Shown here piece by piece: positions 27,613-44,554 of a stretch of DNA of 50,836 nt. Position numbers and translations under genes: made by a program. The stretch lies in the NCBI GenBank assembly GCA_018335675.1, contig JAGXRQ010000132.1:1-50836 (forward strand), written 5' to 3'. Origin of the DNA: Bacteroidota bacterium (GTDB taxonomy: Bacteria; Bacteroidota; Bacteroidia; Bacteroidales; UBA7960). The notes under the pieces are model-generated. The model was not told the DNA's origin, searched no databases, and saw only the letters and a program-made list of their open reading frames with translations. Numbering within the stretch: position 1 is the first letter of the stretch; each line of letters opens with the position of its first letter.

Positions 27613-29895
27613 TTAGAAATAAAACAATTCTTCAGCCAAATCTTCAGGTCTTGTAAGAAGTTGTGGATTCTTATCAATATGAATCAGGCCAGAAACCGAC
27701 AACCTTTTAATTACAAATTCAGATCTATCTTCATCAACTTTCACTTTTGCAATTAGAAGAGATCCCAGCTTAATTAAAAAGTTTGGAACGTGACTAGAAA
27801 CATCCAATAAGTCTTCCTTGTATGCGATAAACTCCTCATTTATGCATCTTTTATTCTGGAAGCAATTTCCTATATCATCAATAATATCATAAACCTGGGG
27901 CAAGGTAAGATTCTCTCTAGACTTAGTCATTATATCATTCCAGCCATATTTGGTCAATTCTTGATCTGTAACTTCAAAACCGGCAGTTTTCATAAGTTTA
28001 ACAACTGCATTATGACAATTATTTAATTCCGTTTCTGAATTTGTTCCAAACCATGTTATAACGGGAACATGCCTTAATATTGGGCGTTTTTTATAGTCGC
28101 TGTTTATTGAGTTAAAAGAGATATACTCATTAAAAGAATTCTGCAAAATATAAATCTGGTCTTTAAGTCGTGCTATCTCACGTTTGTGTTGTAAATCTAT
28201 TCTCTCAAGCTTTCTTTCATAATAGCGATAATATTGCTTCATGAATTTATTTTGAGGACCTGCAGACACTAGCCTCTGACCTTCCTCTGTGTCTGTAAAC
28301 TTATTGAAATTTTCAATAAATTTCTCTGCAATTATATCGGCTTGTTTAATGTATGCAGACTCATACTTCCATGAGTTTTTAGGATTCAGAATAGCTGTAT
28401 CGACACCATTTACAAACTTTGGAATATTAAGGCCGAAAGGTGCAAGCTCTTCAACTTCAGCATTATCAAGTTCTCCATTCAGAATTGCTCTAATTATTTG
28501 ACGTGTGGATGCAAGGTCTATTCTATGGCCTACTCCGTATGCGCCACCTATCCAGCCGGTATTAACCAAATATGCAGTAGTGCCATGCTGACGCATTTTT
28601 TTAGCTAATTCACGGGCATAAACTGTAGGGTGCAAAGGAAGAAATGCAGCGCCAAAAGCAGGAGAGAAAGTCATAATAGGTTCTTTTACTCCTCTTTCAG
28701 TTCCGGCAAGTTTGGCTGTATATCCACTTAAGAAATAATACATTGCCTGATCACGACTCAACCTTGCAACAGGCGGGAAAACTCCAAAAGCGTCTGCCGT
28801 AAGGAAAATAACTTTCTTTGGGTGAGTTCCCTTAGAAACAGGTTTTACAATATTATCGATATGATAGATTGGGTAAGAAACCCTTGTGTTTTCTGTTTTT
28901 GTAGTGTCAAAGAAATTTATCTCACCTGTTTTTTCATCAAATACAACATTTTCAAGCAAAGCATCTCGGCGAATAGCGTTAAATATATCAGGTTCTTTGT
29001 CTTTACTTAGCCCAATGCACTTAGCATAACATCCACCTTCGAAATTAAAAATACCATCATCGTCCCAGCCATGCTCATCATCGCCAATCAAATATCTTTC
29101 AGGGTCGGTTGAAAGCGTAGTTTTACCTGTGCCGGACAATCCAAAGAAAATAGCAGTATCGCCATTTTTACCCATATTAGCCGAGCAGTGCATTGCTGCC
29201 ATTCCTTGAAGAGGGAGAAAATAATTCATTACAGTAAAAAACCCTTTTTTAATTTCTCCACCATACCATGTACCACCAACAATAGCAATTTTCTCTTTAA
29301 GATTAAACGCAACATATACATCCGAATTCAACTGTTGCTTTTCCCATTTTTCATTTACTGTTTTGCAAGCATTAAACATTACAAAATCCGGCTCAAAACT
29401 TCTTAGTTCTTCTTCAGTAGGCCTGATAAACATATTCTTAACGAAGTGAGCCATCCAGGCCACCTCAGTAATAACTCTAATTTTTATTCGTGTATTCTCA
29501 TTAGCACCGCAAAAAGCATCCATCACATAAAGCTTTTTGCCATTAAATTGTTTTATACTAGTCTGCTTTAAATCATTCCATATCTCTTCGGAAATAGGCT
29601 TATTATCAGACTTATTATTTGCATCTGCCCACCATATATTATCTTTGGAAGTTTCTTCCAATACAATATACTTATCTTTTGGAGAGCGACCGGTAAAAAT
29701 ACCAGTATCTACAGTTACTGCGCCTAAACTCGTCACATAGCCCTTGTCATATCCTTGCAGTGCCGGATCTGTTTCATGAGCAAAAAGTTCGTCGTATGAA
29801 AGGTTGTAAAAAATTTGACTTACGGCCTGTATGCCGTATTGACTTAAATCGGGTGCTTGCAAACCTTCTGTTTGCTGTGCGTTTTCATTATACAT
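27613..29895 (-). CDS. pckA: ATP-dependent PEP carboxykinase with a long C-terminal extension
   Basis: The protein has 760 residues; ATP-type PEPCKs are normally about 530-545. Residues 1-547 are a complete enzyme: [12 protein letters not shown] (67-78), [12 protein letters not shown] (207-218), the P-loop [11 protein letters not shown] (252-262), GDDEHGWDD (271-279), [21 protein letters not shown] (365-375) and [10 protein letters not shown], ending [14 protein letters not shown] where the family usually stops. It converts oxaloacetate to PEP or runs in reverse during anaerobic growth. The frame then continues for 213 residues without interruption: a charged helical stretch (about 548-590, [20 protein letters not shown]) likely to form a coiled coil, then a domain (about 605-760) with [20 protein letters not shown] and [16 protein letters not shown] that I do not recognise. 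Confidence 0.93.
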
Positions 29896-32860: not shown

Positions 32861-34174
32861 ATGAGTTCAATAATAGGAATCCGTCACGAAGACAAGTATT
32901 TAATGGAAAGGCGCACACCGCTTGTTCCAAAACACATTGAAAGACTTATAAAGCAGCACAATTTAGAATTTATTGTTCAATCGTCTCCCAAAAGAATTTT
33001 CACAGATGTAGAGTTTAAAAATTCAGGTGCAAGGGTTGAGCCAGATTTAAAAAAGTGCGATGTAATTTTCGGAGTGAAAGAGATTCCTGAAAGTGCTTTC
33101 GAACAAGGAAAAACATACGTTTTCTTTAGCCATGTAATTAAAGGCCAGCCTTACAATATGCCTATGCTTAAGAAAATGATGGAAATGCAGTGTAACCTTA
33201 TTGATTATGAAGTTGTAACTGATGAGCAAAAAAAGAGATTGATATTCTTCGGCAAGTATGCAGGATATGCCGGTATGATAAATTCTTTGTGGAGCACCGG
33301 GCAAAGACTAAAAGAATTCGGTTATACTGATAATGTGTTTTTGAAAATTCAGCAGTCGTGCAAATACAATTCATTAGCTGACGCAAAAAAGGTAATTTCC
33401 GAAGTTGGGCAAGAAATATCAAAAAATGGACTACCAAAAGAGTTGCTGCCATTCACAATAGGCTTTACGGGATATGGGAATGTATCGATTGGAGCTCAGG
33501 AGATTGCCAACCTTTTACCTTCAATTGAAATTTCACCTGAGGATTTGCTAAGCTTGAAAAACCAGCCTAATTTACCTAACAACGTTATTTACAAGGTAAT
33601 TTTCAAGGAAGAGCATATCTCAAGGCTGGCAAATAATGAAGACAAAGAATTTGACCTTCAGCATTATTACAAAAATCCGGAGAACTATACAAACAACTTC
33701 GAGCAATATATTCCACATTTATCGGTATTGATGAATTGCATGTATTGGGATTCACGCTATCCAAGAATTTTCACTAAATCTTTTGCCAAGAACATATACA
33801 ACCAAGGTAATCCAAAGCTTATAGTTGTTGGTGATATAACATGCGACCCTGACGGATCAATTGAATTTACTCACAAAGGCACAGCTATTGAAGACCCAGT
33901 ATTTGTTTATGATCCGATAAATAATGAGCCAAAAATGGGATTTTCAGGAAATGGAATACTTGTAATGGCTGTTGATATTCTTCCCAGCGAATTGCCAAGA
34001 GATTCTTCTATGGCATTTTCAGAAGCATTATACAACCTTCTTGCACCAATTGCAAATGCCGATTTTGCAGCACCATTGTCTGAATTAAATTTGCCGGGCT
34101 TCGTTAAAAGAGCGTTGATTCTGAAAAACGGAAAGCTAACTCCCGACTTTGAATACATTTCTAAATACCTATAA
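32861..34174 (+). CDS. Lysine-ketoglutarate reductase (saccharopine-forming)
   Basis: The protein has 437 residues. GIRHEDKYLMERRTPLVPKH (5-24) is the alanine dehydrogenase/PNT-type N-terminus found in lysine-ketoglutarate reductases (LKR), and PFTIGFTGYGNVSIGAQEIA matches the Rossmann entry of the LKR half of the animal/plant bifunctional enzyme. VFFSHVIKGQPYNMPMLKKM and DYEVVTDEQKKRLIFFGKYA are also typical of that family. It condenses lysine with 2-oxoglutarate to saccharopine using NAD(P)H. The next gene, 35 bp downstream, is saccharopine dehydrogenase, so the pair corresponds to a split AASS/LKR-SDH. The alanine dehydrogenase label is less likely given that pairing. Confidence 0.88.
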   Translation: MSSIIGIRHEDKYLMERRTPLVPKHIERLIKQHNLEFIVQSSPKRIFTDVEFKNSGARVEPDLKKCDVIFGVKEIPESAFEQGKTYVFFSHVIKGQPYNMPMLKKMMEMQCNLIDYEVVTDEQKKRLIFFGKYAGYAGMINSLWSTGQRLKEFGYTDNVFLKIQQSCKYNSLADAKKVISEVGQEISKNGLPKELLPFTIGFTGYGNVSIGAQEIANLLPSIEISPEDLLSLKNQPNLPNNVIYKVIFKEEHISRLANNEDKEFDLQHYYKNPENYTNNFEQYIPHLSVLMNCMYWDSRYPRIFTKSFAKNIYNQGNPKLIVVGDITCDPDGSIEFTHKGTAIEDPVFVYDPINNEPKMGFSGNGILVMAVDILPSELPRDSSMAFSEALYNLLAPIANADFAAPLSELNLPGFVKRALILKNGKLTPDFEYISKYL

Positions 34175-34209
34175 AATAAATCATTCTACTAAAATATAGT
34201 TTCAACAAA

Positions 34210-35547
34210 ATGAAAAAAGTACTTATACTCGGCGCCGGTATGGTTGCAAGACCAATTGTAACATACTTATTAAAGCAAGGATATTTTGTATCAGTTGCTG
34301 ATCTTGTAAAAGAAAAAGCTGAAGAGCTAACCAAAGGCTATGAAAATTCTCAGGCTATACAATGGAGTGTTGATAACGAGACTGCATTAGACTCTATGGT
34401 AAAAGAACACGACATTACTGTTAGCCTTTTGCCTTGGATGTTTCATGTAATAGTTGCTAAATATTGCATAAAACATAAGAAAAATATGGTTACTACATCT
34501 TATGTTAAGCCTGAGATGAAAGCACTTGATACTGCAGCTAAAGACGCTGATATCATTATTCTTAATGAGCTTGGACTTGACCCGGGAATTGACCATATGT
34601 CGGCATTGAGAATTATAGACAATGTACATGCAAAAGGCGGAAAAATTGAAGAGTTTTATTCAATTTGTGGCGCATTGCCAGCTCCTGAAGCAGCCGACAA
34701 CCCGTTTAGATATAAGTTTTCCTGGAGCCCCAAGGGTGTTGTAATGGCAGGAAACAATGAAGCTAATTATCTTAAACATTGGAAAAATATTAATGTCCCA
34801 ACTGCAGACTTGTTTAAAAATCCATTGACTGTCGATTTTCCACAAGTTGGGAAACTTGAAATATACCCAAACAGAGATTCAGTTTCATATATCGACATTT
34901 ATGGAATTCAGGAAACAAGCACTATTATGAGGGGAACATTCAGGTATCCGGGCTGGTGCGAAACTCTTGATGCCATGAAAGCCCTTAAACTAATAACATC
35001 CGACTCTTATGACTTTACAGGAAAAACTTACGCTGAAATGGTTGCGATGCTAATTGGGGCAGACAGTTCCGCAGACATTATAAGAAAATCGGCAAAATTT
35101 TTAAATATTAGTGATGATGCCTATTCTTTAAAAGCGCTAGAGTGGCTTGGAGTGTTTGACCATAGACCTATGAACAGACAAACCGACTCTCCATTTGAGA
35201 TTACCTCTGACTTAATGATTTCTAAAATGGAACTTGGAAGAAATGAGAGAGACATGGTTGTAATGCAACATATCTTCCTTGTTAAGAACTCTGATGGAAA
35301 GAAAGAAGTTATTAAATCTTCTATGCTTGACTTTGGAACATTGGCAACTGACACGGCTGTTGCCAGAACAGTTGCTCTTCCCGCAGCTGTTGGAGTAGAA
35401 ATGATTTTGGCAGGAGATATTAAAGCCAAAGGAGTGCACATACCTGTGATTCCGGAAATTTACAATCCGATTTTGAACAGGCTGGAAGATATGAATATCA
35501 AGATGGTTGAAGAATTCAACCTACCTATAAATCAGATGATTGGATAG
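34210..35547 (+). CDS. Saccharopine dehydrogenase (glutamate-forming)
   Basis: The protein has 445 residues. The NAD-binding motif VLILGAGMVARPIVTYLLKQ starts at residue 4. VTTSYVKPEM, NELGLDPGIDHMSALRIID, YSICGALPAPEAADNPFRYK and FSWSPKGVV are signature segments of saccharopine dehydrogenase, and KAKGVHIPVIPEIYNPILN is the conserved C-terminal part. It oxidises saccharopine to glutamate and alpha-aminoadipate semialdehyde. It probably forms an operon with the LKR gene 35 bp upstream. No semialdehyde dehydrogenase or aminoadipate transaminase is present in the window, so later steps must be encoded elsewhere. A degradative direction is favoured because the LKR half of this type is catabolic in eukaryotes. 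Confidence 0.9.
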   Translation: MKKVLILGAGMVARPIVTYLLKQGYFVSVADLVKEKAEELTKGYENSQAIQWSVDNETALDSMVKEHDITVSLLPWMFHVIVAKYCIKHKKNMVTTSYVKPEMKALDTAAKDADIIILNELGLDPGIDHMSALRIIDNVHAKGGKIEEFYSICGALPAPEAADNPFRYKFSWSPKGVVMAGNNEANYLKHWKNINVPTADLFKNPLTVDFPQVGKLEIYPNRDSVSYIDIYGIQETSTIMRGTFRYPGWCETLDAMKALKLITSDSYDFTGKTYAEMVAMLIGADSSADIIRKSAKFLNISDDAYSLKALEWLGVFDHRPMNRQTDSPFEITSDLMISKMELGRNERDMVVMQHIFLVKNSDGKKEVIKSSMLDFGTLATDTAVARTVALPAAVGVEMILAGDIKAKGVHIPVIPEIYNPILNRLEDMNIKMVEEFNLPINQMIG

Positions 35548-35645
35548 GCACTTAACTAATCCTTTATCATTTTTTAACAGGTAGTTGGTGAAATTTTGCT
35601 ACCTTTGCAAGTCGAAAAATTAAAAATTAACAAAAAAAAATCACA

Positions 35646-36188
35646 ATGTCAACCAAATCATTATTCAAAGTTATTGTTGCAATTTTACTATTGGCAGTAT
35701 TCCCATTTAATCTATTAGCAATTGATGAGCAGGAAAACAAGTTCAAATATTCAAACGAATCTCTTCTTGGATTTATTGACTCAAACAAAGAGATTAGTGA
35801 ATTAAGAAAAGAAAATAATGAAAAAATTGAAGCTTCAATAGTTGAGCACAACCTAACAATGGAGCGTTACAATCAGATTGCACGCGCATCTCAGATTGGA
35901 GCATTACAGAGTGGAACCTTCTCAGACGAGGAAATTGAAGCATTTAACAATGTTGGGCCAGTCATTAGCCAGCATCAACGCGACATGCAAACAGCTATGC
36001 AAATGATTCTTGAAGAAAATGGATTAAACTCTTCATTATATCAGGAAATACTTCGTTCTTACCAACAAGACACTGCACTACAGGAGCATGTTCGTGAACT
36101 TATGCGTGAAAGAGCGATTGAAGCAGCACGTGAAGCAAGAAGAAAAGAAGCTGAAGAAAAAGCTAATCAAGATAAAGACAAAAGCTAA
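35646..36188 (+). CDS. Exported DUF4168-like helical protein
   Basis: The protein has 180 residues. The N-terminus is a signal peptide or anchor (LFKVIVAILLLAVFPFNLLA). The mature part is helical and charged, with IVEHNLTMERYNQIARASQI and MILEENGLNSSLYQEILRSY, and ends in a Glu/Lys/Arg-rich helix (EAAREARRKEAEEKANQDKD). The ERYNQIA...EENGL..YQEI pattern matches what I recall of DUF4168. It is probably periplasmic; function unknown. TACCTTTG at 35600-35607 is a possible -7 box, 38 bp before the start. A strong bidirectional terminator follows the stop codon. Confidence 0.7.
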   Translation: MSTKSLFKVIVAILLLAVFPFNLLAIDEQENKFKYSNESLLGFIDSNKEISELRKENNEKIEASIVEHNLTMERYNQIARASQIGALQSGTFSDEEIEAFNNVGPVISQHQRDMQTAMQMILEENGLNSSLYQEILRSYQQDTALQEHVRELMRERAIEAAREARRKEAEEKANQDKDKS

Positions 36189-36206
36189 AATATATCTATC
36201 ATAATG

Positions 36207-36238
36207 AAAAAAGGCTGTTTTACTAAACAGCCTTTTTT
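36207..36238. terminator. Bidirectional terminator between DUF4168 and cinA genes
   Basis: AGGCTGTTT (36212-36220) and AAACAGCCT (36225-36233) form a 9-bp stem with a TACT loop, flanked by A6 and T6 tracts. It serves both converging genes; the cinA stop codon falls in its loop. Confidence 0.85.
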
Positions 36239-37467
36239 ATTTGCTTTCTAAGCATATTAAGAGCAGTAACTGAACTTCTCACAATATTTCTATCTCTTCG
36301 ATCACCAAATAAAAACTTTTCAACTATAGTTTCCTTATCAGAAGACACAGCTATATATACCAGTCCGACAGGCTTTTGTTTTGTACCTCCTCCCGGGCCG
36401 GCAATTCCTGTAACAGAAATAGAATAATCGACTTTCAACACTTTTCTAACTCCTTCAGCCATTGCAACAGCAACCTCTTTGCTCACAGCACCGTATTTGT
36501 CAATTAGCTGAAAAGGAATACATAATTGATTTATCTTAACATCATTACTATAAGAAGTTATTGAGCCTTTATAACAAGCAGAACTACCAGGAATACTCGT
36601 AATAAGATGTGAAATATAACCTCCTGTGCAACTTTCTGCTATCCCCAAAGTAAGATTATTTTTTGCAAGTAGCTTTACTAATATCCCCTCCAAAGTATCA
36701 TTATCATATCCGAAAATATATTCCGGAATAAGCTTTCTTAATTTAGCCACTTCAGCGGCAATATCTTTTTGCAGTTGTTTTTTATCTCTTCCTGCAGCGG
36801 AAAGTCTTAATCTAACTATTCCTGCTGAAGGTAAATATGCAAGACTAATATTTTTGGGCAAATTATCTTCCCACTTTTCAATCAGAGCCGCGAGAAAAGA
36901 CTCTCCAACGCCTTGTGTAAGAATAGTTTTATGAACAATATATTCATCACGAATTTTACTTTTTAACTCGGGAATAATAAAATTTTCGAACATATATTTC
37001 ATTTCAAAAGGGACACCTGGCAGAGCAGCTAAAAATCTTTCATTTTTGCGATAAAATAGTCCGGGAGCAGTTCCTTCCGGATTTCTGATAAATCCGAACC
37101 CAACAGGAACCGAAGATTGCAACCTGTTAAGTTCTGTAAGCGGCATACCTCTTTTTTTGAAAAATGAGACTATATCATTAAGCACCGTTTCATTTATTTC
37201 CAGATTTGTTTTGAAATATTTAGCTAAAACATCTTTGGTAAGATCATCTTTTGTTGGGCCAAGACCACCGGTAATAATAACAATTTCTGACCTCTTCAAA
37301 GAAACATCAATTGCATTATAAATATCTTCTTCAACATCAGATATTACCGAAACATATCTAACCCTAACGCCAATTTCGTTCAACTTCTGACACATCCAAG
37401 ATGAATTTGTATTTACAACCTGCCCTATTAATAGCTCCTCTCCTATGTTAATAATTTCGGCATTCAT
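36223..37467 (-). CDS. cinA: CinA family protein, nicotinamide-nucleotide amidase
   Basis: The protein has 414 residues, full length for two-domain CinA. The N-terminal MoCF-like domain starts NAEIINIGEELLIGQVVNTN and contains ITGGLGPTKDDLTKD and ALPGVPFEMKYMFE. The C-terminal amidase domain (about 250-414) has IAESCTGGYISHLITSIPGS, with the conserved Ser-Cys-Thr segment, and SVTGIAGPGGGTKQKPVGLV. It deamidates nicotinamide mononucleotide in NAD recycling and may also cleave ADP-ribose. The name comes from competence loci, but no competence genes are here. Confidence 0.93.
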   Translation of the reverse strand: MNAEIINIGEELLIGQVVNTNSSWMCQKLNEIGVRVRYVSVISDVEEDIYNAIDVSLKRSEIVIITGGLGPTKDDLTKDVLAKYFKTNLEINETVLNDIVSFFKKRGMPLTELNRLQSSVPVGFGFIRNPEGTAPGLFYRKNERFLAALPGVPFEMKYMFENFIIPELKSKIRDEYIVHKTILTQGVGESFLAALIEKWEDNLPKNISLAYLPSAGIVRLRLSAAGRDKKQLQKDIAAEVAKLRKLIPEYIFGYDNDTLEGILVKLLAKNNLTLGIAESCTGGYISHLITSIPGSSACYKGSITSYSNDVKINQLCIPFQLIDKYGAVSKEVAVAMAEGVRKVLKVDYSISVTGIAGPGGGTKQKPVGLVYIAVSSDKETIVEKFLFGDRRDRNIVRSSVTALNMLRKQIKKAV

Positions 37468-37608
37468 ATATGTGTTATTGATTTATACTATTGCAAAAAT
37501 ACTTAAGAAAACGACTCGTCAAGTTATATAGTAAGCCTGTTTTTAGGTATTATGCTATTTTCTCATTATTTTTGTTAGTTCTAAAAATAAACACTAAATA
37601 CAAAGTTT

Positions 37609-38487
37609 ATGAAAAAAGTTTATAAAGAATCGGAACTGATATTAAATCCAGACGGAAGCATTTATCATATAAAATTAAAGCCTGAAAACATTGCACAAAA
37701 AGTTATTGTAGTAGGCGATCAAGGCAGGGTTGAAACAGTTTCAAAGCATTTTGAAAAGATAGAGCACAAATCTCAAAACAGAGAATTTGTTACACATACA
37801 GGATATTTTAACGGAAAAAGAATTACTGTAATGTCGACAGGAATTGGAACAGATAATATAGACATTGCCATCAATGAACTTGACGCTGCAGTGAATATCG
37901 ACTTAGAAAAAAGAATAGCAAAAGACAAACATACTAGTTTAGATATTATTAGAATTGGCACTTCTGGCGCTCTTCAAGCTGATATTGAAGTAGACAGCTT
38001 TGTTGCATCTACACACGGGATGGGCTTTGATGGTTTGCTAAATTTTTATGATTATAAAGAAGGTATAACTGAAGATGATATTTCAAATGCATTTATTGAT
38101 TATGCCAAATGGGGCAAAAAACTAACATATCCATATGTTGTGAAAGGATCTGACATGCTATTGGAAAAAATTGCTCACGGACTAAAAAGCGGCATAACAG
38201 CTACTGCGTCAGGATTTTACGGACCACAAGGACGAGAGTTGAGAATTCCACTTTCAGTGCCGGACTTAAATGAAAAGATTGAAAATTTCAATTATAATGG
38301 TCACAGAATTACAAATTTCGAGATGGAAACATCAGCGCTATATGGCCTTGGAAAAATATTAGGACACAATACTCTTACAATATGTGCAATTATTGCAAAT
38401 CGCCTGGCAAAAACATATAGTAAGGATTATAAGAAATCAGTAGAAACCCTTATTAAATTAGTTTTAGAAAGATTCACATCATATTAA
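37609..38487 (+). CDS. Nucleoside phosphorylase (uridine phosphorylase-like)
   Basis: The protein has 292 residues. VIVVGDQGRVETVSKHFE (33-50) is the phosphate-binding start of the PNP/UDP family, MSTGIGTDNIDIAINEL the second conserved loop, and IRIGTSGALQADI the family signature. FEMETSALYGLGKIL provides the nucleoside-binding Glu-Met-Glu. It cleaves a nucleoside to base and ribose-1-phosphate; uridine is the family-based guess, purine nucleosides cannot be excluded. TATTTTTG at 37567-37574 is a possible -7 box. The SirB1-type gene begins 13 bases after its stop and is probably co-transcribed. Confidence 0.88.
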   Translation: MKKVYKESELILNPDGSIYHIKLKPENIAQKVIVVGDQGRVETVSKHFEKIEHKSQNREFVTHTGYFNGKRITVMSTGIGTDNIDIAINELDAAVNIDLEKRIAKDKHTSLDIIRIGTSGALQADIEVDSFVASTHGMGFDGLLNFYDYKEGITEDDISNAFIDYAKWGKKLTYPYVVKGSDMLLEKIAHGLKSGITATASGFYGPQGRELRIPLSVPDLNEKIENFNYNGHRITNFEMETSALYGLGKILGHNTLTICAIIANRLAKTYSKDYKKSVETLIKLVLERFTSY

Positions 38488-38500
38488 TAAAATCGATTAT

Positions 38501-39394
38501 ATGATAGCAGATGAGGTTGAAAAGAACAAGGAGATAAAAGCCTTGATTAGTTTAATAGACGACCCCGATGAAACAGTTTATACAGAAGTGTTTGACAAAC
38601 TGATAAAAGAAGGTCAAAATGCAATCCCACTTCTTGAAAAAGCATGGGAAAATTCATTACAGCCGGAAATACAAAACAGGATTGAAACGATTACTCATCA
38701 AATTCAATTTGAATCGGTTTGTAATGATCTTGAAATGTGGCTAAATACAGAAATGGATGTTTTATCGGGGTCATTAATAGTTGCCAGATATCAATATCCA
38801 AATCTAACAGAGAACGAAATCAGGTATGAGATAAATAAATTAAGAAAAGATATCTGGATAGAGCTGAATGACAATTTAACGGCATTAGAGCAAATAAAAG
38901 TTTTCAATCATATTTTTTACGAAGTTTTCGGCTTCAAAGGCGACAATACGAATTATCATTCGCCTCAAAACTCTTACATCAATATTGTATTAAATAGCAG
39001 AAAGGGGAATCCGCTTTCTCTTGGAATTATTTACATGATACTATCTCAGAGTCTCGAACTACCAATTTATGGAGTAAATCTGCCTGAGCATTTTGTGCTT
39101 GCATATACAGCAAAATCTTTAGATCCGGACACTTTAACAATAAACGACAAAAATGTACTATTTTACATTAATGCATTTAGTGGAGGAGCTGTTTTGTCGT
39201 ACAAAGAAATTGAGGATTTTCTAAGAAAGCTTGACTTAGAGCCAATCCCGCCTTACTTTAACCCTTGCAGCAATCTCGACATAATAAAAAGGATGATAAA
39301 CAATCTTATACTTTCGTATGAGAAGAACGGAGAAAAATCAAAAGTAAAAGAATTGAAAGTATTAAAGAGTATAATAGAACCAAAAAAGCCCTGA
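38501..39394 (+). CDS. SirB1/transglutaminase-like family protein
   Basis: The protein has 297 residues. The core is FNHIFYEVFGFKGDNTNYHS, PQNSYINIVLNSRKGNPLSL and LPIYGVNLPEHFVLAYT, the conserved region of SirB1-type transglutaminase-like proteins, in which the usual catalytic Cys position is occupied by Ser/Asn and His/Asp-type residues remain. The N-terminal 100 residues are helical and may be HEAT/ARM-like (LISLIDDPDETVYTEVFDKL). Unlike many relatives it lacks long C-terminal TPRs. Function is not defined in the family. The stop codon falls in the stem of a bidirectional terminator. Confidence 0.8.
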   Translation: MIADEVEKNKEIKALISLIDDPDETVYTEVFDKLIKEGQNAIPLLEKAWENSLQPEIQNRIETITHQIQFESVCNDLEMWLNTEMDVLSGSLIVARYQYPNLTENEIRYEINKLRKDIWIELNDNLTALEQIKVFNHIFYEVFGFKGDNTNYHSPQNSYINIVLNSRKGNPLSLGIIYMILSQSLELPIYGVNLPEHFVLAYTAKSLDPDTLTINDKNVLFYINAFSGGAVLSYKEIEDFLRKLDLEPIPPYFNPCSNLDIIKRMINNLILSYEKNGEKSKVKELKVLKSIIEPKKP

Positions 39395-39416
39395 TAATTA
39401 CCAGGGCTTTTTCATT
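39384..39416. terminator. Bidirectional terminator
   Basis: AAAAGCCCTG (39384-39393) and CAGGGCTTTT (39402-39411) form a 10-bp stem with an 8-base loop. It separates the SirB1-type gene from the converging oxidoreductase operon. Confidence 0.85.
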
Positions 39417-39420
39417 ATCA

Positions 39421-40698
39421 TTAAGCTTCAGCGAGCTTAACTTTTATCTTTTCCATTGGCAACTTATCAGTTAGCCCTTTTTCTTCTATCGTTTTGAAAA
39501 GAGATTCAGTGCTAATAATTCCGGATTTCAATGCGAAGTAAAACACTCCATAAATGGAAGCATCTCTGGCTCCAATGCTTCTGAAATCATGAGCAATAAT
39601 TTCGGCTCCGGTTTCAGGAACTGTAAGACTTGAATCAATAAAAAGTTTACCGGATTTCATGTTTTTGATTCTGGCTTTATTATGAGCAAGACCGTCGGCG
39701 CTTGTAATAACAACCACGTCCGGAACATCAATACCATGAAACAATATCTCCTCAGGAGACAAATTCAATTCGGCTGTAGAGAAGCCAACACCAACTGTAA
39801 CAGGGTAGCTACCTTTCTGAGTTACAGACAACCCTGAGCGAATTGAAGCTTCAGAGAGCAATGTTGCAGCAAGCTGAACTCCTTCTCCGGCGGAACCGCT
39901 AAGGATTATTGACATAGGATGTTTCAAATAACTATTAAATACTTTTTTAATATCAGGCACTTTAGCAAAAAGATTATTAGTTTTTCTACCTTGCTGATTT
40001 TCAAAAGCATTTCTTTTATTAATCCACTCTCCTATTTCTCTTCCGGCTTCCTCAACTATTTCTTTAAGTTTTCTTTTAGGATTAAGTTTCACTCCATAGC
40101 TTGGGCAAATTTCCATAACTTCAATTAGAGAGAATCCTTTAGTCCCGAAAGCAACAGCAAGCTTATCGGAATAATCACCAATGCCAATAATTCTGGAAGT
40201 AAGTGTAGCTCCTGCAGTATGACTTAGAGCGCAAATATCATATCCAGCATATGGATTTCCTTCGTAAGAAGTTGTAGTATTAAATCCTTGAGGTGTAAGC
40301 CCTGAAGTCTGACCACCTGTCATACCATAAAGAAAATTATTATGAACAACAACAGTCATAGGTAGATTTAGCCTTGCTGCTTCCATAATATGCTGCAAAC
40401 CGATAGTTGAACCACCGTCACCAATAAAAACAATAACTTTTTTATTAGGATTATCAACGCCAAAAGCTATACCTGCTCCAAGCGCTGCTGATCTACCGTG
40501 AAGACCGTGCACAGTATGAGTATTAAGGCACTTATCAATTATTCCATGACAACCAATATCAGTTACCACAATAACATCCAGTGGGTCGTAACCCATTTTT
40601 TCCAGAGCTTTAGCTGTATTTTTCGCGATAAGGTCATGTCCGCATCCTTTACAAAAAGGAAGAGAATCTGTATTTAAAATTGCTGTATGTATTGTCAT
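39421..40698 (-). CDS. 2-oxoacid:ferredoxin oxidoreductase, fused beta-gamma subunits
   Basis: The protein has 425 residues. Residues 1-215 are the TPP-binding beta subunit: FCKGCGHD with C16 and C19, C50, the TPP/Mg motif IGDGGSTIGLQHIMEAARLN (GDG 93-95) with VVHNN (119-121), and C198, which complete a [4Fe-4S] site. Residues from about 255 are a gamma domain with ILSGSAGEGVQLAATLLSEA and GSYPVTVGVGFSTAELNLS. There is no separate ferredoxin-like delta subunit. The enzyme would oxidatively decarboxylate a 2-oxoacid, usually to an acyl-CoA, reducing ferredoxin. The start shares a base with the alpha-gene stop (TAATG) and a GGAGGT lies just upstream. Substrate is not readable from sequence. Confidence 0.85.
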   Translation of the reverse strand: MTIHTAILNTDSLPFCKGCGHDLIAKNTAKALEKMGYDPLDVIVVTDIGCHGIIDKCLNTHTVHGLHGRSAALGAGIAFGVDNPNKKVIVFIGDGGSTIGLQHIMEAARLNLPMTVVVHNNFLYGMTGGQTSGLTPQGFNTTTSYEGNPYAGYDICALSHTAGATLTSRIIGIGDYSDKLAVAFGTKGFSLIEVMEICPSYGVKLNPKRKLKEIVEEAGREIGEWINKRNAFENQQGRKTNNLFAKVPDIKKVFNSYLKHPMSIILSGSAGEGVQLAATLLSEASIRSGLSVTQKGSYPVTVGVGFSTAELNLSPEEILFHGIDVPDVVVITSADGLAHNKARIKNMKSGKLFIDSSLTVPETGAEIIAHDFRSIGARDASIYGVFYFALKSGIISTESLFKTIEEKGLTDKLPMEKIKVKLAEA

Positions 40699-41825
40699 TA
40701 TTTTACCTCCTGAATAATTTGTTGTGGTGTAATCATTTTACCAAGATTTCCTACAAATCTTAATTTCTCCGGCTTATTCATTCCAAACAAAATATCACCA
40801 AACTGATTATTGATATTTTCTTCAGCCATAACAACTCTGGAATATTTTTCAATAATCTCGAGATATTGCTTTGGAACAGGCAGTAGCGTTTTTGGAATTA
40901 ACAGTGAAGTTTTAATTCCATCGTGTCTAAGTTTATTAACTGCATTTTTAGCTGCAGCGGCAGTTATGCCAAATGAGATAATAAGATTATCGGCACCTTT
41001 TTGCTCATCATAATCATAGAAAGTATAATTATCAAGGCAATGTAGATTCTTATCTTCAAGTCTGCGAGTGTTTGCCATAGACTCGTCGTTAGAGTGCTGT
41101 AAAATTCCCATTTTATCATGAGTAGAAGCATTAATTCTAACCTGACAATCATTTTGAGTAACAGGCAAAAAATCCGGAACTAATCCGTCTCCTCCATAGG
41201 ATTTATAAATGCAATTATTCTTGTCTTTACAGCTGAAGTATTTTTTCTCAACCGGAATTATATCATTTAGTTTATCGAGTTGGAAGCTTTTGTGAGTCAT
41301 AACTTCCTCCTTAGATGTAAGAAGCACTACAGGAGTTCTCAATTCAACCGACATTTTCACAGCTTTTTCAGACAATTCCCAGCTATCTTCAAAATTAGAA
41401 GTACAAAGAACAGGTATTGGATGTCCACCTGAAATCATACCTTTAAGAAGAAGAAGATCTCCCTGAGCACCGCAAGTGGCAGTACCAGTGGCAGGTCCTA
41501 ATCGTTGAACCAGAATAATAACCATAGGAAGCTCCATCATATAAGCCATATTAATGGATTCAACCATAAGAGCAAATCCGGGGAATGACGTTGCAGTTAC
41601 AGGAACTTTTCCAGTAGCAGCCAAACCTGTCATCCATTGAATTGTAGTAATTTCATCAGGTGCAGGCAACATCAAAGGCATTCTTTGACTGCTGTATGCA
41701 TATAATAAATTTGCAGGTGTTATAGGATATCCTATAAACGAATCGGCCCCTGCACGTGCCAGGCCTTCAATTATCAATCTTGAAGCATCTACCAGCGTGT
41801 GTGCGCCTTTAGTGGTTTCTTGCAT
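40698..41825 (-). CDS. 2-oxoacid:ferredoxin oxidoreductase, alpha subunit (KorA-like)
   Basis: The protein has 375 residues from the ATG at 41825, which has AGGAG six bases upstream; the two-codon-longer TTG start is less likely. FIGYPITPANLLYAYSSQR (about 33-51) matches the YPITP motif of KorA/PorA, and QRLGPATGTATCGAQGDLLL is the family segment lining the active site. The C-terminal half has NLIISFGITAAAAKNAVNKL, the usual domain II. It pairs with the beta-gamma gene immediately downstream. KorA-type subunits act on 2-oxoglutarate and larger 2-oxoacids, so 2-oxoadipate is possible. It overlaps the CoA-transferase gene by 17 bp, showing tight co-expression. Confidence 0.87.
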   Translation of the reverse strand: MQETTKGAHTLVDASRLIIEGLARAGADSFIGYPITPANLLYAYSSQRMPLMLPAPDEITTIQWMTGLAATGKVPVTATSFPGFALMVESINMAYMMELPMVIILVQRLGPATGTATCGAQGDLLLLKGMISGGHPIPVLCTSNFEDSWELSEKAVKMSVELRTPVVLLTSKEEVMTHKSFQLDKLNDIIPVEKKYFSCKDKNNCIYKSYGGDGLVPDFLPVTQNDCQVRINASTHDKMGILQHSNDESMANTRRLEDKNLHCLDNYTFYDYDEQKGADNLIISFGITAAAAKNAVNKLRHDGIKTSLLIPKTLLPVPKQYLEIIEKYSRVVMAEENINNQFGDILFGMNKPEKLRFVGNLGKMITPQQIIQEVK

Positions 41826-43029
41826 AAACAACTCCTTTTTTGATTAGGTTTTCAATTATATCTGAATTAAGATTAAGAACATTTTCCAAAATTTCGAAAG
41901 TATGTTGGCCATAATGAGGAGGAGGCGTTAATTTTTCTTCAACAATTTTTTCATTTGAAGAAAAAGCAACAGATCGAACACCCCTTATTTCCCTGCCATC
42001 AAAATAAATATTTTCAAGCATCATATCCTTTGATTCGTGGCTTTCAAAAACTTCCTGCATATTAAATACTCCTCCGGCAGGCACTTTCTTTTCAGACAGC
42101 AAAGATAAAATTTCTTTGCGTGAATATTTGGCAATTAACTCTTGTAAAATGCTATTTATTTCATTTTTATTTACCACTCTATTTTGATTTTTAGCAAACT
42201 TAGGATTAGTAACTAAATCCAGCCTACCCAACTCACTTACCAAAGTAAGAAATTGTTTTTCAGTTCCAACTGCTAGCACAATTTCTTTATCATCAGATGT
42301 TTTGAATATTGTTCCATAAGGCACAATATTAGGATGATCTGAGCCTATTCTTTGAGGAATTTCATTACCAACCAACCAATTAGTGGCCTGATTTGCCAAT
42401 GATGCGAGCCCTGAGCGGAAAAGCGAAGCTTCGATGTATTGCCCTATCCCATTTCTTTCTCTGTTTAACAAAGCTATAAGAATGGCTTCTTTAAGTTGAT
42501 GAGCAGCTAGTATATCCATTAATGCAACCGGCATTTTAACAGGTGGTCCGCCTGCCTCACCATTCATGTATGTAAAACCTGTTTCAGCTTGAATTATGGC
42601 ATCAAATCCTGCACGAGGATTTTGCATACCATAACCAGTAATATGAGCATAAATAATTCGTGGATTTAGTTCCTTCATTTTTTCATAATGAACCATAAGT
42701 TTTTCGGCATCACCCGGCTTGTAACTTACAAGGACAATATCGCTTTTCTCAATTAGCTTATAAACTATTTCCAGACCATCTTCCTCGCACAAATTAAGAG
42801 CAATAGACTTTTTACCCCAATTTACACATGAAAAATATCCTGAAATATCTGTATCAGAGTCTTCTTTAGGGAGTTTCCATTTTCGGGTAACATCTCCTTC
42901 GGTAGTATTATTTTCTACTTTTATAACTTCAGCACCCAACTCGGCAAAAAACATCCCAACGCTTGGCCCTGCCAGTACGCTTGCAAGTTCCAAAACTTTT
43001 AGTCCTTTTAATGGAGAATTATTATTCAT
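41809..43029 (-). CDS. CaiB/BaiF class III CoA-transferase
   Basis: The protein has 406 residues. LKGLKVLELASVLAGPSVGM and FAELGAEVIKVENNTTEGDV form the family N-terminus, and GGPPVKMPVALMDILAAHQL gives the likely catalytic D172. RIIYAHITGYGMQNPRAGFD and NIVPYGTIFKTSDDKEIVLA are also characteristic. Class III enzymes transfer CoA between carboxylic acids through an aspartyl intermediate (formyl-CoA:oxalate, carnitine, and succinyl-CoA:glutarate CoA-transferases are members). Position between a symporter and a 2-oxoacid oxidoreductase suggests activation or recycling of a carboxylic acid used in that pathway. The exact acid is unknown. Confidence 0.88.
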   Translation of the reverse strand: MNNNSPLKGLKVLELASVLAGPSVGMFFAELGAEVIKVENNTTEGDVTRKWKLPKEDSDTDISGYFSCVNWGKKSIALNLCEEDGLEIVYKLIEKSDIVLVSYKPGDAEKLMVHYEKMKELNPRIIYAHITGYGMQNPRAGFDAIIQAETGFTYMNGEAGGPPVKMPVALMDILAAHQLKEAILIALLNRERNGIGQYIEASLFRSGLASLANQATNWLVGNEIPQRIGSDHPNIVPYGTIFKTSDDKEIVLAVGTEKQFLTLVSELGRLDLVTNPKFAKNQNRVVNKNEINSILQELIAKYSRKEILSLLSEKKVPAGGVFNMQEVFESHESKDMMLENIYFDGREIRGVRSVAFSSNEKIVEEKLTPPPHYGQHTFEILENVLNLNSDIIENLIKKGVVYARNH

Positions 43030-43048
43030 GATAAGGTTAAGATTAAGG

Positions 43049-44554
43049 TTAAGAGATGTCTTTTTTAGGGAAAATTTTTATTCCGAATGATTTTTTAATA
43101 AGATTCTTTTGCTTGGCTTTTGCATACATATTCCCAATAATAACAAATACAATTGCTGCGCCAACAGCGATGTAAGTATCTTCCACCTTCCACCATCCGG
43201 AAATTTTCGCAATTATATTAACTAATACAGCGATAGTGCCACCAACAAAAGCCCATCTTACACCATCAGTGCTTATCCAACCTCGCTTATAAATCCCCAT
43301 CATAATAACAATAGCACCAATAGCCCTGATACCATAGGAGATATAAGCCATGCTAAGAATTGCACCTGTACTGTAATACGCTAAAGGAATTGTTACAAGA
43401 TTTACAATAATAACCAGTTTTCTTGCAGTAGAAATGATCTTCTTATCAACAGCAGTTTTATTAATTATTCCGTGATAAATATCTTTTGTAGCAATAGTAA
43501 CAACTGCAAAATTTACCGGTCCAACAGTAGATAAAATTGCAGCAAGAATCCCCGAAAGTGCAATTCCTCCCAAAACAGGATGAATAAATTCAGGAGAAGT
43601 CATAAGAGTTGGCAAAACCATTTTAGGGTTTATTGAATTTGTAGCTGCATCCCAAAGAGGGCTTGTTGCATCAGTAATATTGAAGTATTTTCCGGTTTTG
43701 GCAACCAGTCCCAGCAGTGCTACCATTATACCAAAAGGAGCAATAATAAAGGCCGAAAAGATTGCAGCTTTCTTAGCTATTGGAGCAGTACGAGCAGCAA
43801 AAATAGGCTGAATACTAGCCTGACCGGCCATTCCACCCAGCACTCCACCAAGAATAAGACTCCAGGCATAGCTTAATCCACCACTAAAAGGATTATATAG
43901 ATTTTCAGGAGAGCCTTGACTAACCATGGACTCTTTCAGAACTGCAAAACCTCCTACGTCGCTAACGCCTATCCATGCGGCAACACCTATACCTAAAAAC
44001 ATAACAATAACGTGAATTATTCCGGTAATTGCAAGAGCATGCATTCCTCCAAAGTAAGTATATAAAGTTATAACGAGAGATGCAATTAAGACAGAATAAA
44101 ACCAATCTAGGCCAAACATTGCCGAGATAACAGCTGAAGCTGTTTGCAACTGCACAAAAGCTAACACTATATATGCAAAAAGAAATGCAATAGCTGAAAT
44201 TGCCCTGGCTCTGGGGCCAAAAAGATTTTCAAGCATTTCGCTAACAGTGTGAACATTGTTTTTGCGATAGTGCTTTGCTACCGTAAATCCAATAATTATC
44301 ATTCCGATAGCAGTGGAAATATTATACAGAATGGGCTGCATAGTGCCAGACACGAATGACTTTTCACTAACGCCAATAGTACTCATTCCACCAAGCCACT
44401 CTGAGGCCACAACCACAGCACAAGCAATTACACCAAGGTTTCTACCTGCAACAAGATAGTCGGCTGCAGATCTGCTGGCAACTTTTCTTGTAAGTAACGA
44501 TATAAGTGTGATTAACCCAAAATAGATTAAAACCACAATAAGATATGTACTCAT
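43049..44554 (-). CDS. Sodium:solute symporter family transporter
   Basis: The protein has 501 residues with about 13 hydrophobic helices, fitting the SSS family. YLIVVLIYFGLITLISLL is the first helix, followed by RSAADYLVAGRNLGVIACAV and VASEWLGGMSTIGVSEKSF, the conserved early motif region. GGMAGQASIQPIFAARTAPI and SGILAAILSTVGPVNFAVVT contain the A(I/L)LST segment usually near the sodium sites. It is the first gene of a four-gene operon, 19 bp upstream of the CoA-transferase. A carboxylate or amino acid is the likely substrate, presumably the one processed by the downstream enzymes. Confidence 0.88.
   Translation of the reverse strand: MSTYLIVVLIYFGLITLISLLTRKVASRSAADYLVAGRNLGVIACAVVVASEWLGGMSTIGVSEKSFVSGTMQPILYNISTAIGMIIIGFTVAKHYRKNNVHTVSEMLENLFGPRARAISAIAFLFAYIVLAFVQLQTASAVISAMFGLDWFYSVLIASLVITLYTYFGGMHALAITGIIHVIVMFLGIGVAAWIGVSDVGGFAVLKESMVSQGSPENLYNPFSGGLSYAWSLILGGVLGGMAGQASIQPIFAARTAPIAKKAAIFSAFIIAPFGIMVALLGLVAKTGKYFNITDATSPLWDAATNSINPKMVLPTLMTSPEFIHPVLGGIALSGILAAILSTVGPVNFAVVTIATKDIYHGIINKTAVDKKIISTARKLVIIVNLVTIPLAYYSTGAILSMAYISYGIRAIGAIVIMMGIYKRGWISTDGVRWAFVGGTIAVLVNIIAKISGWWKVEDTYIAVGAAIVFVIIGNMYAKAKQKNLIKKSFGIKIFPKKDIS

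Follow-up and report, generated by a model that had tools for sequence, protein, structure and literature searches.

An operon for a 2-oxoacid:ferredoxin oxidoreductase as a candidate middle part of saccharopine-type lysine breakdown in a Bacteroidales genome

The stretch of DNA analyzed here (the window, 50,836 nucleotides) comprises positions 1 to 50,836 of contig JAGXRQ010000132.1, from a Bacteroidota bacterium of the order Bacteroidales (UBA7960; GenBank assembly GCA_018335675.1) whose genome is 3.36 Mb in size and 98% complete. Two blocks of genes in it may belong to lysine breakdown. On the plus strand are the genes for a stand-alone lysine-2-oxoglutarate reductase (LKR; 32,861–34,174) and a glutamate-forming saccharopine dehydrogenase (SDH; 34,210–35,547). 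On the minus strand, four tightly packed genes form an operon, encoding in this order a sodium:solute symporter (SSF; 43,049–44,554), a CaiB/BaiF CoA-transferase that is a candidate glutarate CoA-transferase (CaiB; 41,809–43,029), and the KorA-like alpha (40,698–41,825) and fused beta-gamma (39,421–40,698) proteins of a 2-oxoacid:ferredoxin oxidoreductase (OFOR). All of these genes had been named in an initial annotation of the window, and their open reading frames (ORFs) end exactly at these coordinates. The operon described there is borne out as well, lying on the minus strand and ending in a beta-gamma (POR) fusion. The two blocks lie on different strands, with 3.9 kb and other genes between them, and so are not one operon, an arrangement that we rejected also for its lack of conservation.

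The LKR, which has the Pfam domains AlaDh_PNT_N/C, was identified by its near-full-length homology to the LKR domain of human AASS (250 bits, residues 3–434) and by its pairing with the SDH; no NCBIfam model matched it. The SDH has the domains Sacchrp_dh_NADP and Sacchrp_dh_C (260 bits), both over cut-off, and matches, along almost its whole length, the fungal saccharopine reductase 1e5l (306 bits) and the SDH of human AASS (302 bits). The OFOR proteins carry the marks of their family. In alpha, for which the ATG at 41,825, preceded by the ribosome-binding motif AAGGAG, was preferred over the TTG at 41,831, the POR_N domain and a match to TIGR03710 (220 bits, under the cut-off of 483) are accompanied by the YPITP motif, with Thr38 in 80 of 81 aligned rows, and by the carboxylate-binding Arg110, in 81 of 81 (residues counted from the TTG). 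The ATG start makes the overlap of the caiB and alpha genes 17 nt long, and the alpha and beta-gamma ORFs have one base in common (alpha stop/next ATG). The beta-gamma fusion (PF02775 and PF01558) has the thiamine pyrophosphate (TPP) site and one [4Fe-4S] cluster, whose ligands we take to be C16, C19, C50, and C198, found in all 86 aligned rows, the window included. CaiB is a class III CoA-transferase by PF02515 (323.6 bits, cut-off 23.3) and by Asp172, presumably the catalytic nucleophile, which is present in 40/40 aligned rows. The best of its seven NCBIfam models was succinate--glutarate CoA-transferase (NF052585) at 274 bits, where the equivalog cut-off is 750. The symporter, first gene of the operon, matches PF00474 (130 bits). 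On the operon's 3' side is a hairpin of 15 pairs with a T tract (39,381–39,414, minus strand), and its weight as an intrinsic terminator comes from its place directly after the operon stop codon, since the region has 6 terminator-like sites where 4.0 are expected.

In the initial annotation, the OFOR was taken for a possible 2-oxoadipate oxidoreductase and CaiB for a glutarate enzyme, and of the intervening enzymes looked for in the genome, glutaryl-CoA dehydrogenase (GCDH) was found, on contig C42. This protein is one of three acyl-CoA dehydrogenase matches, and the closest solved structures are GCDH 3eom (435 bits) and a second GCDH (415 bits), which we take to be the Burkholderia and human proteins, respectively. 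Arg97 and Ser101 are conserved in 18/18 rows and Glu371 in 17/17 readable rows, all three presumably active-site residues, and with these and its nearest relatives we count it as a GCDH. Against the NCBIfam model GlutCoADH_Des, presumably that of the non-decarboxylating type, it scored 279 bits, under the cut-off of 470. Its gene adjoins those of a membrane Fe-S protein and a cysteine-rich protein.

The surroundings of related OFORs connect the oxidoreductase to GCDH. We surveyed 92 OFOR loci, 86 of them distinct; the named loci are the best 80 of 146, with flanks that reached at most 10 kb either way and were often ended by the contig. Sixteen of the 86 distinct loci, those named being Bacteroidota or Ignavibacteriota, have a GCDH (more than 60% identity to that of the window genome) no more than 4 kb from the OFOR; 14 of the 86 have less than 1.5 kb of sequence upstream of the OFOR before the contig stops. 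A seventeenth such locus, L112, has the two genes about 7 kb apart. The GCDH-OFOR pair occurs also in a metagenome-assembled genome (MAG) of Melioribacter roseus (L102), a cultured species. In L036, genes for crotonase, 3-hydroxyacyl-CoA dehydrogenase (HBD), thiolase, acyl-CoA dehydrogenase, GCDH, SSF, CaiB, OFOR alpha, and OFOR beta-gamma follow one another in one direction (the crotonase assigned by eye; HBD, thiolase, acyl-CoA dehydrogenase, and GCDH by Pfam), and in L070, a MAG labelled Brocadiia, the row is SSF-CaiB-OFOR-SDH. As a control, 19 GCDH neighborhoods from genomes with a GCDH away from a window-type OFOR contained no relatives of KorAB, VorB, or SucAB (a twentieth, L153, was left out, its GCDH not being recovered as an ORF). 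In a tree of the joined alpha and beta-gamma proteins, built with a quick method only from the 80 rows that remained of 92 after removing six duplicates and six too-short sequences, the GCDH-adjacent loci fall in two clades (SH-aLRT 98 each) that part at a fork with support 80, and the window's OFOR is in a clade of 25 rows (support 98) inside one of them. CaiB adjoins the OFOR in 41/86 loci, and CaiB and SSF together in 38/86.

The 4-kb closeness of the LKR/SDH and OFOR blocks, on which the initial annotation had leaned, did not hold up as a link. No LKR was found in the 80 named loci (tblastn, E 1e-25), where SDH was found in one, and in the 10 other same-order genomes having both LKR and OFOR, the two were on different contigs in every case. 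Some related loci, L043 and L045 among them, keep the transglutaminase, phosphorylase, and CinA neighbors beside the operon, without LKR.

Some further genes recur around these OFORs. In seven loci (L028, L030, L054, L058, L067, L072, and L075), a FAD/Fe-S protein of ~980 aa is encoded upstream of SSF; the L028 copy resembles the 2-hydroxyacid dehydrogenase YdiJ (616 bits, under cut-off), and a 43% relative is found near the GCDH-OFOR pair of L085. This protein may supply a 2-oxoacid. SSF adjoins the OFOR without CaiB in L084, L108, L110, and L121, and the genes after GCDH in L154, L155, and L157 encode an epimerase-like protein (by eye) and a 519-aa carboxyltransferase (Pfam on L155 only).

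Co-occurrence across genomes, whose absence the initial annotation would have counted as a refutation, was found for GCDH with OFOR and for GCDH with LKR. In a sample of 198 genomes of the same order, OFOR was present in 13, LKR in 108 (E 1e-40), and GCDH in 42 (E 1e-100). GCDH was found in 9/13 OFOR genomes versus 33/185 others (p 1.5e-4) and LKR in 40/42 GCDH genomes versus 68/156 others (p 1.4e-10), in Fisher tests that treat genomes as independent although they are related. LKR was present in 11 of the 13 OFOR genomes (p 0.02), that is, in 10 of the 12 that carry the beta-gamma fusion besides the window genome. Within the window's OFOR clade, an LKR of at least 42% identity was found in 16/18 genomes examined, the window genome counted. 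From the named loci, we searched the genomes of 50 of the 80, picked mainly for long flanks, and detected LKR in 37 (E 1e-20) and GCDH in 17 (E 1e-80). Among these, the 14 Bacteroidota or Ignavibacteriota without CaiB beside the OFOR had GCDH in 14 and LKR in 12, and the 27 with CaiB beside it had GCDH in 3 and LKR in 24, as if an acyl-CoA common to both left either through GCDH or through the CaiB operon. The isolate Perlabentimonas gracilis M08_MB (L077) is one such case, with the operon, an LKR of 34%, and no GCDH found at E 1e-80. The order sample had GCDH in 3/6 operon-bearing genomes and in 6/7 other OFOR genomes; the window genome has both the operon and GCDH.

The LKR counts differ in weight with the type of LKR. 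In 20 LKR neighborhoods that were read, SDH adjoins LKR in 11, all with an LKR type of 58–69% identity. Beside the type of 31–40% identity, no SDH was seen in the seven neighborhoods read, nor was there one beside the LKR of L141 (46%, at a contig end) or L142 (41%). The 31–40% type, of which one member is even so closest to AASS among solved structures, is by our count the sole LKR in 49 of the 108 LKR genomes of the order sample and in 18 of the 37 of the named sample, and counts that take it in are weaker.

The reading that we find best, and toward which we lean slightly, is that the OFOR is a 2-oxoadipate:ferredoxin oxidoreductase and CaiB a glutarate CoA-transferase; neighborhood and co-occurrence are what point to the 2-oxoadipate activity. 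We rate the earlier guess a little above even odds, though on other grounds than proximity. The operon would then be the ferredoxin-linked middle part of a saccharopine-type lysine breakdown. LKR and SDH would convert lysine and 2-oxoglutarate to aminoadipate semialdehyde and glutamate, from which a putative aldehyde dehydrogenase and an aminotransferase would lead to 2-oxoadipate, and the OFOR would decarboxylate this oxidatively to glutaryl-CoA and CO2, with two ferredoxins reduced. The glutaryl-CoA could leave through GCDH as crotonyl-CoA, or through CaiB, which would exchange its CoA with succinate or acetate and release free glutarate, so that the thioester is kept for ATP formation; in reverse, CaiB would activate glutarate. 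SSF would carry glutarate, or another acid of the pathway, across the membrane.

In mitochondria, the saccharopine pathway consists of AASS, ALDH7A1, KAT2, the DHTKD1 complex, GCDH, and SUGCT. The LKR, SDH, GCDH, and CaiB-family CoA-transferase described here are homologous to the human enzymes; unlike there, LKR and SDH are separate proteins, no ALDH7 was identified among the three aldehyde dehydrogenases of the genome, and the 2-oxoadipate step, catalyzed in mitochondria by a lipoate-dependent dehydrogenase, would fall to a ferredoxin-linked OFOR. Lysine breakdown in Pseudomonas and E. coli enters via 5-aminovalerate, not saccharopine. It shares with the proposed route glutarate, a CaiB-type activation, and GCDH (PMC7645780, PMC6265302). 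The former describes the CaiB of A. tumefaciens, the nearest enzyme of assayed activity met in our literature search, as moving CoA reversibly between succinyl-CoA and glutarate and as accepting acetyl-CoA too. With this enzyme, GcdG, and SUGCT, the window's CaiB shares class III membership, the top NCBIfam model, and the conserved Asp, but it is far under the equivalog cut-off, and its substrate is a candidate one. PMC7645780 also has glutaryl-CoA feeding biotin synthesis via BioZ, with bioZ genes tested from alpha-proteobacteria, an atypical Bacteroides, and a Thermus strain, and biotin synthesis of this type is one more conceivable use of glutaryl-CoA. Our literature search, with most subscription journals outside its coverage, turned up no OFOR specific for 2-oxoadipate, and the gene set reads as a variant of the known pathway with an enzyme swap not met in that search.

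Several findings weigh against the 2-oxoadipate reading, and the substrate pocket is one of them. Pocket residues of OFORs were identified in the StOFOR structures (PMC5020499), and we transferred their positions onto our set by HMMER alignments. The equivalents of Arg344 and Thr349 are present in 81/81 alpha rows, and the position of Asp468 has Ser in 81/81 (Leu in the aligned chains 1yd7, 8ys5, and 6n2n). In beta, the position of Lys49 of StOFOR1 has Ile (Ile53) in 85/86 rows, that of Leu123 has Met (Met126) in 86/86, and a neighboring Lys (Asn in 8ys5) is replaced by Gly (Gly128) in 86/86. An Arg stands at the Lys49 position in 8ys5, in 6n2n, which we take to be a 2-oxoglutarate:ferredoxin oxidoreductase, and in the KorB-like protein on contig C65 of the same genome (by eye). 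With the KorAB enzymes of those two structures, the window's OFOR shares homologous alpha and beta parts, the carboxylate Arg, YPITP, and the cluster cysteines; it differs in the gamma part fused after beta and in the three pocket letters. The K49I exchange in StOFOR1 abolished 2-oxoglutarate activity, and the KorAB of H. thermophilus is a 2-oxoglutarate enzyme without the basic residue (both from PMC5020499), so that this residue is not universal in such enzymes. The window's OFOR has no basic residue there, and by its sequence the pocket does not look like that of a 2-oxoglutarate enzyme. Its letters resemble those of a branched-chain enzyme and also fit a branched-chain 2-oxoacid: the genome's own Vor-type enzyme (C145) has the same Met and Gly, with Leu for Ile53 (by eye). 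The pocket appears roomier and less charged, and a longer substrate would fit only if another group, perhaps beta His51 (82/86 rows) or His61 (86/86), grips its far carboxylate. These letters speak for an OFOR specific for another, branched-chain or hydrophobic, 2-oxoacid, with CaiB and SSF taking the matching acid and the GCDH neighbors reflecting shared regulation of amino-acid breakdown. So does the presence of the OFOR where GCDH or LKR is lacking, as in nine OFOR genomes from other or unnamed phyla, which had GCDH in none and LKR in one, and so does the different cluster around the OFOR in L094, L100, and L101 (hydantoinase-like, acyl-CoA dehydrogenase, KASIII-like, and thiolase genes), which probably serves another pathway. 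We nevertheless hold this explanation unlikely, as the genome already has a separate Vor-type enzyme, GCDH adjacency occurs in two clades and GCDH itself requires glutaryl-CoA, and the OFOR of L070 is directly followed by SDH. The L070 evidence is itself qualified by its label: its OFOR clusters with Bacteroidales on the tree, so that transfer or mis-binning is possible. Also against 2-oxoadipate are the absence of GCDH (E 1e-80) from 24/27 named operon-bearing genomes and from 14/18 genomes of the window's own OFOR clade, and the better-matching LKR type, which is in just 5/13 OFOR genomes (p 0.34, no enrichment); the tendency of operon-bearing genomes to lack GCDH comes down to 3–4 independent pairs on a tree-aware test and is not significant.

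The intervening enzymes were thus found only in part: GCDH is present, but no aminoadipate-semialdehyde dehydrogenase of the ALDH7 type was identified, a further point on the opposing side. Of the three aldehyde dehydrogenases in the genome, one is a P5CDH over cut-off, one is ended by the contig, and one has no family assignment; a PDB search, made with the last only, gave no ALDH7 identification among the best 60 of 149 matches. By eye, no aldehyde dehydrogenase stands within three ORFs on either side of LKR in 20 LKR neighborhoods, and the two full-length enzymes of the genome had no matching ORF there. The genome also encodes a 2-oxoglutarate dehydrogenase (SucA and SucB over cut-offs, contig C36) that could act on 2-oxoadipate, leaving the operon as an unrelated unit for the uptake and oxidation of an organic acid. 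The separate contigs of LKR and OFOR elsewhere in the order sample would suit this, as would the 33 of 42 GCDH genomes of the order that lack a window-type OFOR, but SucA/SucB were near GCDH in 0/19 neighborhoods, against GCDH by the OFOR in 16/86 loci, and L036 and L070 connect the operon with GCDH and SDH, respectively, so that we consider it improbable. OFORs are known to carboxylate other acids reductively, and the operon might run in reverse, SSF importing glutarate, CaiB activating it, and the OFOR adding CO2 to glutaryl-CoA, with the resulting 2-oxoadipate serving as a precursor of aminoadipate or lysine. The gene order (transporter, activating enzyme, OFOR) agrees with such use, and so do the lysA scores of at most 106 bits (cut-off 297.9) in seven of 40 genomes searched, namely the window genome (best 73 bits) and six operon-bearing relatives (G199, G200, G205, G212, G215, and G240). 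Ten more genomes scored 131–235 bits, possibly variants or fragments, making 17 below cut-off, and 23/40 were over it, operon-bearing ones included. LysW, a marker of the bacterial aminoadipate route of lysine synthesis, was found in 0/16 genomes by a search that scored in 4/14 control genomes; lysine synthesis by the LysW route was accordingly rejected and the biosynthetic direction disfavored, the known bacterial way from aminoadipate to the semialdehyde being missing (fungal-type Lys2 was not searched for). For the seven genomes with low lysA, the simplest reading is lysine uptake, not synthesis by the LysW route. With a GCDH in the genome and the L036 row, both catabolic, reverse use seems to us quite improbable.

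Four further OFORs in the genome, which by length and sequence (by eye) resemble the PFOR, KorAB, Vor, and Ior types, leave the window's OFOR free for another substrate. A plain 2-oxoglutarate or pyruvate enzyme was disfavored as its identity, both types being encoded elsewhere, as typed by eye, and the pocket being different. Carriage on plasmids was not supported, as the OFOR was absent from the plasmid collection at E 1e-60. Around the L094-type cluster, L100 also has a methylmalonyl-CoA-mutase-like protein and a CaiB relative (Pfam on L100 only), L096 was matched to this cluster type by tblastn alone, and L097 keeps a 672-aa hydroxyacyl-CoA dehydrogenase-like neighbor beside the OFOR.

Between the two blocks of the window (35,646–39,394) are genes outside the pathway: DUF4168 (plus strand), CinA (minus strand; assigned by eye on the translation), a nucleoside phosphorylase of the phosphorylase superfamily (plus), and a transglutaminase-like protein (plus). 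Farther upstream, 2,279–25,251 holds a cluster that we take to be of the purine/urate type, with YgfK (921 bits), a selenium-dependent xanthine dehydrogenase (887 bits), and a dihydropyrimidinase (515 bits), all over cut-off, an SsnA-like protein under cut-off, a MocA-like protein, and two PLP enzymes. An ATP-type PEP carboxykinase of 760 aa is encoded at 27,613–29,895; its Pfam match covers residues 27–500, and ~260 C-terminal residues have none.

If the 2-oxoadipate reading is right, such Bacteroidota may break lysine down as mitochondria do, except that the middle step would be anaerobic. More tentatively, the beta-gamma-fused lineage could be a distinct, glutaryl-CoA-forming 2-oxoadipate enzyme with a pocket of its own (beta Ile53, Met126, Gly128, and His61; alpha Ser236), and the SSF-CaiB-OFOR operon a means of fermenting lysine to glutarate that saves energy and stands in the place of GCDH in many anaerobic Bacteroidota, a wider proposal that we think possible and would not yet favor. 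The familiar substrates of OFORs, a central enzyme family of anaerobes, are pyruvate, 2-oxoglutarate, branched-chain 2-oxoacids, and indolepyruvate, to which 2-oxoadipate would add a new class. The bacterial saccharopine route of lysine would then yield reduced ferredoxin, and uncultured Bacteroidales, which judging by isolate names include many sediment MAGs, would be predicted to form free glutarate from lysine.

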